From Lentisphaera profundi (GTDB lineage Bacteria > Verrucomicrobiota > Lentisphaeria > Lentisphaerales > Lentisphaeraceae): a stretch of DNA of 64,000 bases. Numbering within the stretch: the stretch's first letter is position 1; every line of letters begins with the position of its first letter. The stretch lies in NCBI RefSeq assembly GCF_028728065.1, contig NZ_CP117812.1:1798001-1862000 (forward strand), written 5' to 3'. Position numbers and translations under genes: made by a program. This document shows positions 32,625 to 34,380 of the stretch, piece after piece. The notes below the pieces were generated by a model. The model searched no databases, was not told the DNA's origin, and worked only from the letters and a program-made list of their open reading frames with translations.

Positions 32625-33131
32625 ATGAGTATCCTAAGTCCGCGATTTTACCGCATCCAATTCTTTAAAATCCTCCGCTCTGGAGGCAGCCCCGAGTATA
32701 TTGCTCGATCGGTTTTTTGTGGCGTATTTGCGGGATTGACTGTCCCTCTTCTACAGATCCCCGTCGCCATTTTTATCGCATGGATCTTTAAAGCGAACAA
32801 AACTATTGCCTCTTTATCAACTTTTGTCTCCAATCCATTAAGCTACCCGGTTTTTTGGTTTGGCGCACTTTACATTGGCTCCTTCTTCATCCCTGGCAAC
32901 GAACAATTTCTCGCCGATTGCCAAAAACACTTTTTCGAACTCTCTTTTTGGTTCAATCTAGATTGGTGGGAACTCGGCAGCAGTACCATTTTAATGTTTA
33001 TCACAGGTGGGTCCATCCTAGGACTTTTCCTTGGAACACTCGCTTATTTCTGGACAAAAAAGAACGTGATTAAAAAACGAGCAAAAAGATTAAAAAACGA
33101 GCGTTTAAAAAAAATAAACAAAGAGGCATGA
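32625..33131 (+). CDS. DUF2062 membrane protein
   Basis: A 168-residue membrane protein with several hydrophobic segments (about residues 25-48, 52-75, 115-140) and a positively charged C-terminal tail (KKNVIKKRAKRLKNERLKK). The GGSPEYIARSVFCGVFAGLTVP pattern and TFVSNPLSYPVFW match DUF2062. Members are often found beside cell-envelope or polysaccharide genes; function is unknown. The stop is one base from the ribE start, so the genes are translated together. Confidence 0.75.
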   Translation: MSILSPRFYRIQFFKILRSGGSPEYIARSVFCGVFAGLTVPLLQIPVAIFIAWIFKANKTIASLSTFVSNPLSYPVFWFGALYIGSFFIPGNEQFLADCQKHFFELSFWFNLDWWELGSSTILMFITGGSILGLFLGTLAYFWTKKNVIKKRAKRLKNERLKKINKEA

Positions 33132-33132
33132 C

Positions 33133-34380
33133 ATGTTTGGCGGAATAATAAAACACAGCGGATCAGTACATTCAATTTCTGGCAACAACTCTAATGGCAT
33201 CGTTCTTGAGCTAGAGACCTCTATTGTTTCACAAGTTCAAATCGGGGATTCCGTAGGAGTAAACGGCGTTTGCTTAACTGTTACGGAAATCATTTCTGAT
33301 TCGATCCTCAAGTTTGACGTATGGCCGGAATCTCTACAAAGAACAACTCTCGCTGATCTGAAAATCGCTCAAGAAGTCCACGTTGATCTCCCTCTCAAAG
33401 CTAGTGATTTTATTGGGGGCCACCCTGTATTAGGCCATGTTGATTTTGTCGGCTCTATTGTATCTATGAGCCAAGTTGATAATGCGAGTCAGCTAAAAAT
33501 CTGGATTGCCTTACCCGCTGAATACTCTAGTCTCATTCCAGCTCGTGGCTCAATTGCTGTTGATGGCGTCAGCTTGACCATCACAGGACGAAACGAAAAC
33601 TCATTTGCCATCTCATTAATCCCAGAAACCCTACGCCTTACCCACCTCGGCGAACTTAAAGCTGGCGACGCCCTAAATATAGAAGTAGATTTTAGTAGCC
33701 GAGCTCTTCAAGACAAATCAGGGATGATTAACCTAGCTAATGAAGCAGAAACCATTTCTGATAAAATTGATACCATAGCAGCCGCCATCGACACCTACAC
33801 CAAAGGCGGTTTACTTCTTATTCAAAATAAGGAAAGCTTCGCGCTCTGCTCTTCAGCTGAAAAAATCACTGATCGCAACCTCAGTTTTGCCCTCTCTTTA
33901 TCCCGAACTCCATGCACCGTAGCTGTCACCGAAGGCTTAGCCGAAAAACTTTTTATTCCTGCTCCAGTTATTAATACTAAAGCAGAAGAACGTCGCTTTT
34001 TACTCCCTGTTAACCACAGAGCCAATGAACTACACGACTACACAACTGCGGCTATGAAAAAATCCATTAGCTTATTTTGCTCCGACGAGCTGACTATTGA
34101 CGACTGGATGACCCCTGGTAACATCAACCCTTTACAAATCTATGGTGCTAATTCATCATCTAGACCAGGCCTACCGGAAGCCGCTGTTGCACTCTGCTTT
34201 AAGAGCAAACTTCCTCATGCCGCGATCTGCCAAAACCTTATTGATGCCGACGGTAAAGAAATGAATTCAGAGCAGGCACACGTCATATCTACAAGATATC
34301 AAATTCCTATTTATCAAGTGAGTGAACTAATCTCAGAAAACTCTGAACTCTTTGAAGATGATTATTTTGGTGATCTTTAA
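33133..34380 (+). CDS. ribE: Riboflavin synthase fused to a degenerate DHBP-synthase (RibB-like) domain
   Basis: Residues 1-200 are riboflavin synthase: two lumazine-binding repeats with GIIKHSGSV, GVNGVCLTV, GGHPVLGHVD and a second repeat with ARGSIAVDGVSLTI. Residues ~208-400 align along their length with E. coli RibB (3,4-dihydroxybutanone-4-phosphate synthase), sharing the start AAAIDTYTKGG, PGNINPL and RPGLPEAAVAL. The catalytic parts are gone: the DREN acidic loop reads NKESFALC, the TGVSAADR segment reads ELHDYTTAAM, GHVFPL reads GNINPL, RGGHTEA reads RPGLPEA, and the CEL motif reads CQN. The first domain probably works; the second is likely a pseudoenzyme. The order RibE-RibB is unusual. 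Confidence 0.88.
   Translation: MFGGIIKHSGSVHSISGNNSNGIVLELETSIVSQVQIGDSVGVNGVCLTVTEIISDSILKFDVWPESLQRTTLADLKIAQEVHVDLPLKASDFIGGHPVLGHVDFVGSIVSMSQVDNASQLKIWIALPAEYSSLIPARGSIAVDGVSLTITGRNENSFAISLIPETLRLTHLGELKAGDALNIEVDFSSRALQDKSGMINLANEAETISDKIDTIAAAIDTYTKGGLLLIQNKESFALCSSAEKITDRNLSFALSLSRTPCTVAVTEGLAEKLFIPAPVINTKAEERRFLLPVNHRANELHDYTTAAMKKSISLFCSDELTIDDWMTPGNINPLQIYGANSSSRPGLPEAAVALCFKSKLPHAAICQNLIDADGKEMNSEQAHVISTRYQIPIYQVSELISENSELFEDDYFGDL

Follow-up and report, generated by a model that had tools for sequence, protein, structure and literature searches.

The window, a 64,000-nucleotide stretch of the genome of Lentisphaera profundi, carries on its forward strand a gene (positions 33133..34380, ATG start, 415 amino acid residues plus the stop codon) whose product joins a riboflavin synthase (RibE) to a domain related to the DHBP synthase RibB. 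Residues 1-192 (33133..33708) comprise two lumazine-binding barrels that keep the RibE motif residues, an assignment based on PF00677, NF006767, and a fold match. They are followed by a junction (residues 193-212; 33709..33768), which occupies the site of the GKY helix and the cage-signal-like tail of related enzymes and contains neither, and by the RibB-like domain, here referred to as RibB* (residues 213-401; 33769..34335), which, on the evidence of PF00926, fold, residue comparisons, and selective constraint, represents a full-length DHBP synthase fold devoid of the catalytic residues. The protein ends in an acidic tail (residues 402-415; 34336..34377), delimited by alignment, sequence identities, and low pLDDT values. 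Directly upstream and on the same strand lies a gene for a DUF2062 membrane protein (32625..33131; PF09835, 95.2 bits), recognized by its profile and its adjacency, whose stop codon ends one nucleotide before the start codon of the fusion.

Both halves of the protein are recognized in Pfam searches. PF00677 (Lum_binding) matches it in two stretches with 131 bits (cut-off, 27), and PF00926 (DHBP_synthase) matches residues 218-401 with 63.9 bits (cut-off, 26.4), aligning from position 3 to position 190 of the 191-position profile. The first-pass annotation had proposed such a RibE-RibB fusion, with a second half that aligns with RibB from start to end, and the profile, fold, and comparative data all agree with it; the alternative, a family that fits the second half better than PF00926, found no support, as Pfam offers no competing match there. 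Among the NCBIfam equivalogs, the riboflavin synthase model NF006767 scores 182.6 bits against a threshold of 155 on the RibE half, and the RibB model TIGR00506 scores 41 bits against a cut-off of 177 on the RibB* half, whose sole matches among the sequences of solved structures are RibB chains. The open reading frame and its translation are conserved in six genomes, and the identical frame with the same boundary is present in six separate assemblies, so the fusion is neither an assembly artifact nor the product of a frameshift.

Retained motifs and missing C-terminal elements of the RibE half

The RibE half contains the conserved barrel motifs GDSV..GVCLTVT, GGH...GHVD, and DGVSLTIT (in G001, a metagenome-assembled genome of the family, the Asp of DGVSLT is replaced by Asn), and the columns S40, C47, H97, H102, and D186 are invariant in the six fusions. 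The modeled fold of this part matches riboflavin synthases with a Z score of 24.4. The genome encodes no RibE other than the fusion, which makes it likely that the synthase is active.

What sets the fusions apart is the region after the second barrel. A GKY(V/I)-type helix follows this barrel in each of the 11 RibE proteins recovered from the class and in none of the six fusions, and 10 of the 11 end in a peptide similar to (S/T)M..L..AG(F/W), which is absent after the barrel in all six fusions; it is here, where the relatives carry helix and tail, that the fusions have the RibB* domain. In the structural model, pLDDT is below 50 at residues 187-211, and no helix is formed at residues 190-211. 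The sequence and this low-confidence stretch of the model together suggest that the fusion RibE is devoid of the C-terminal trimerization helix. It also appears to be devoid of a C-terminal amphipathic cage-localization signal, the protein ending in the acidic tail instead. The C-terminal helix of RibE is held to trimerize the enzyme, and neighboring subunits are needed because the N-barrel of one chain and the C-barrel of another enclose the active site between them (PMC10366380). In Aquifex and Bacillus, end peptides of the kind described act as cage-localization signals, by which RibE is docked inside the RibH cage (PMC13376624), and their likeness to the tail peptides of the class relatives suggests that the latter could also be cage-docking signals.

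The acidic tail at positions 34336-34377 is 93-100% identical among the three congeners, which is above the rest of the protein, and the fusions from other genera do not have it. This tail is probably disordered, judging from the model, and may be a short interaction motif.

In Aquifex RibH, two hydrophobic positions, 121 and 125, are required for RibE docking (PMC13376624). The corresponding residues are Ile or Leu combined with Ile (once Val) in 26 sequences of the class from outside Lentisphaeraceae and Val combined with Leu or Met in all five Lentisphaeraceae sequences read (L127, L128, L123, L133, and L014). Such mild changes in the pocket, found in a single lineage, would be compatible with lost docking, a fit rather than a proof. 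Both positions were placed on what we take to be the sequence of Aquifex RibH. The seven residues named in PMC13376624 fall on the right numbers in that sequence.

Fold and missing catalytic residues of the RibB* domain

AlphaFold2 models built from five family sequences had a mean pLDDT of 73 and a pTM of 0.50 for the whole fusion and values of 77 and 0.79, respectively, for the second domain alone. The modeled RibB* domain matches the RibB structure 3h07 with a Z score of 24.6 (2.5 Å over 192 residues), as opposed to 7.7 for the first other fold, so that the second half of the fusion is predicted to have the RibB fold.

When the six fusions were aligned with 23 RibB domains from the class, only 7 of the 65 columns that are near-invariant in the latter proved to be kept in all six fusions. 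The residues kept in none of the fusions include the Arg, the first Glu, and the Asp of RENEGD, the Thr and Gly of TGISA, the His of GH.F, the Thr of HTE, and the Glu of ICEI, and the fusion in the window retains none of the catalytic or metal-binding residues of the RENEGD loop or of the TG(I/V)SA, GH.F, GHTEA, and CE motifs. The loss of catalytic residues claimed for the second domain is thus confirmed by comparison with both the RibB domains of the class and the fusions of the family. Among the motif changes listed in support of that claim, the last, CEL to CQN, has to be corrected: the canonical form in the relatives is ICEI, and the fusion has ICQN. The RibB of V. cholerae is inactivated by a change of the corresponding Glu or His, and that of M. 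jannaschii by a change of the Glu (both as reported in PMC5228156). Because this required pair is gone from all six fusions, we strongly infer that RibB* is devoid of DHBP synthase activity.

Across the six fusions, which come from three genera, 32 positions of RibB* are invariant, and most of them do not hold the canonical residue. They include R287, D302, and N330, at places where all 23 canonical RibB domains have Thr, Gly, and His, respectively.

Selection, distribution, and genetic context

Each half of the fusion gene in the window was compared with its counterparts in two congeners by substitution counts. Silent divergence is at or near saturation (pS of 0.69-0.77), and dN amounts to 0.10-0.11 in the RibB* half versus 0.13-0.15 in the RibE half. 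Constraint on the RibB* half equals or exceeds that on the RibE half, and selection keeps the dead domain. As judged from these comparisons, RibB* would count as a pathway pseudoenzyme, i.e., an enzyme homolog without catalytic residues that is kept by selection.

The fusion was detected in all six Lentisphaeraceae genomes examined. In a sample of 289 genomes of the phylum, including four from Lentisphaeraceae, every match listed for a genome outside the family is confined to the RibE part, with no RibE-RibB fusion among the matches listed for the 285 other genomes. Two peptide patterns taken from RibB*, compared with 84,980 species genomes in a search that differently sequenced independent fusions would escape, retrieved four loci, all of them from Lentisphaeraceae, one being Lentisphaera marina IMCC 11369. 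A scan of viral contigs revealed no relative of the fusion. Long open frames that contain RibE in four other genomes (G163, G147, G257, and G277) were also considered as candidate fusions and rejected: they have no RibB domain behind RibE, the frame being merely open upstream.

The DUF2062 gene lies directly upstream of the fusion in five of the six family genomes, and among the loci read in other families it was not found next to RibE. The suggestion that DUF2062 and RibE are translated together thus holds at the level of conserved gene adjacency, with which cotranslation would be consistent. FMN riboswitches were detected neither near the fusion gene nor in the six family genomes, and control of the fusion by such an element was rejected.

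The rest of the riboflavin pathway

The first-pass annotation had raised the question of whether the genome encodes another complete RibB. Such a protein does exist: an intact RibB (285 bits) is encoded beside ribH elsewhere in the genome. In three genomes of the family (G001, G003, and G002; loci L060, L058, and L057), the stand-alone and otherwise intact RibB reads GQTEA where the metal-binding His of GHTEA is expected. RibD is encoded in all six family genomes.

Five of the six also carry a pair of tandem, overlapping RibBA-like genes (L002:1462-2556 and L043:979-2067; about 810,650-812,760 on contig C1 of the L. profundi genome itself), which are conserved at the protein level. Both halves of the first gene product are degenerate, its RibB residues being lost and the zinc cysteines of its A half replaced. 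The second gene codes for a GTP cyclohydrolase II that keeps the zinc cysteines and is preceded by a hardly recognizable N-terminal half, which matches the profile of the degenerate domain of the first product only weakly (probability, 22) and that of canonical RibB not at all. The 92%-complete genome G001 yielded RibD, RibB, RibH, and the fusion but no match to GTP cyclohydrolase II (PF00925), which may reflect a gap in a fragmented assembly.

Elsewhere in the class, genomes usually encode one canonical RibBA, often directly 5' of ribH, and one relative (G057) has ribD, ribE, ribBA, and ribH in a row. The pattern in Lentisphaeraceae suggests that an ancestral RibBA was broken up, with the B activity staying beside ribH, a tandem copy retaining the A activity, and the dead parts being kept for some other use. 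The order ribE-ribBA seen in G057 would offer an easy route to a RibE-RibB fusion. The phylogenetic tree, with branches of 3-6 changes per site, does not separate an origin of RibB* from RibBA, the stand-alone RibB, or the tandem copy.

Possible roles of the RibB* domain

The reading that we prefer, with a probability of roughly 45%, is that the fusion is a working RibE carrying a noncatalytic RibB-fold domain that assembles or docks it and that arose during the break-up of the ancestral ribBA. An ordinary RibE would trimerize through its C-terminal helix, its intersubunit active site demanding neighboring subunits. In the fusion, a RibB-like domain descended from dimerizing ancestors would bring the RibE subunits together or dock them on a partner, a role that would replace docking in the RibH cage. 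As for the origin of the arrangement, the B activity of the ancestral ribBA would have passed to the ribB-ribH pair and the A activity to the tandem RibBA copy, and the spare B domain would have become attached to RibE. Three functions had been suggested earlier for the inactive domain, namely, binding of a pathway intermediate, stabilization of RibE, and sensing of flavin; the apparent absence of both the helix and the docking tail in the fusions favors assembly or stabilization among them.

The main rival, which we regard as rather unlikely, makes RibB* a sensor: a sugar phosphate, an intermediate of the pathway, or a flavin would bind in its altered pocket, and the domain would thereby tune the activity of RibE. 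The 32 invariant and mostly noncanonical positions, with R287, D302, and N330 at former catalytic places, could line such a changed pocket, and protein-level control would be useful in a family in which no FMN riboswitch was found; however, the same residues may be structural, the loop of acidic residues by which metal and substrate are held has been lost or rewritten, and nothing indicates a ligand. The invariant polar residues specific to the family could also belong to a new catalytic activity, yet no catalytic motif of another family was recognized and the context points to no substrate, which makes a new enzyme very improbable. It is harder still to credit either a decaying passenger without function or a DHBP synthase that still works. 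The low identity between genera (29-34%) would agree with decay, but the constraint on RibB* at least equals that on RibE and none of the six genomes has a stop codon or frameshift in the domain; likewise, the RibB fold would suit a remaining activity, but the Glu and His required for it (PMC5228156) are kept in none of the six fusions.

Another proposal, improbable in our estimate, is that RibB* uses the interface by which RibB dimerizes to pair with the intact RibB or, alternatively, with the degenerate tandem RibBA proteins and so joins several enzymes of the pathway in a single complex. RibB forms dimers, the active site of one chain being covered by loop 4 of its partner (PMC5228156), and the family has several degenerate RibB-type domains attached to riboflavin enzymes, the tandem ones being conserved at the protein level; the genes, however, are located at three separate places in the genome. 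Of the readings considered, such pairing would be the most striking if true. A broader and equally speculative version has the dead RibB domains organizing riboflavin synthesis in Lentisphaeraceae as a whole: RibE-RibB*, RibB*-RibA* (the first tandem product), and the RibA with an eroded N-terminal domain would assemble through RibB-type interfaces with one active RibB and replace the RibH cage.

In a single bacterial family, several enzymes of a core vitamin pathway have left dead domains in the pathway's own proteins, one of them attached to the enzyme of the last step of vitamin B2 synthesis at the very site of the trimerization helix and cage signal of other bacteria. This raises the question of how RibE assembles and obtains its substrate when the classical helix and the cage tag are both missing. 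The family offers a natural experiment in the redivision of the bifunctional RibBA and in the use of pseudoenzyme domains as assembly parts.

Comparison with known systems

The first half of the fusion resembles ordinary RibE (PF00677; E. coli 1i8d and Brucella 4e0f) in its two lumazine-binding barrels, its equivalog score above the cut-off, and its fold (Z score of about 24) but differs in lacking the C-terminal trimerization helix and tail and in having RibB* behind the second barrel. The second half aligns over the full length of the fold and profile of DHBP synthase RibB (PF00926; 3h07, 1g57, and 4p8e), from which it differs in being devoid of any catalytic residue and fused behind RibE. 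In the RibE proteins of A. aeolicus and B. subtilis, which carry a cage-localization signal and reside in RibH cages (PMC13376624), it is likewise the region after the second barrel that decides assembly; in the fusion, a folded pseudoenzyme domain replaces the helix and the short signal peptide. No account of a dead RibB that follows RibE and stands where its helix and docking tail would be was found in the literature searched, which consists largely of freely accessible papers. Other two-domain riboflavin proteins include RibBA, RibBX (6mnz), and the Arabidopsis proteins RIBA2 and RIBA3, each of which has lost one activity while the protein was kept (PMC3509567). In all of these, RibB comes first and its partner is GTP cyclohydrolase II, whereas in the fusion RibE comes first and is itself the partner. 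Dead halves of riboflavin proteins are already known from RIBA2 and RIBA3 and from the two-domain RibBX.
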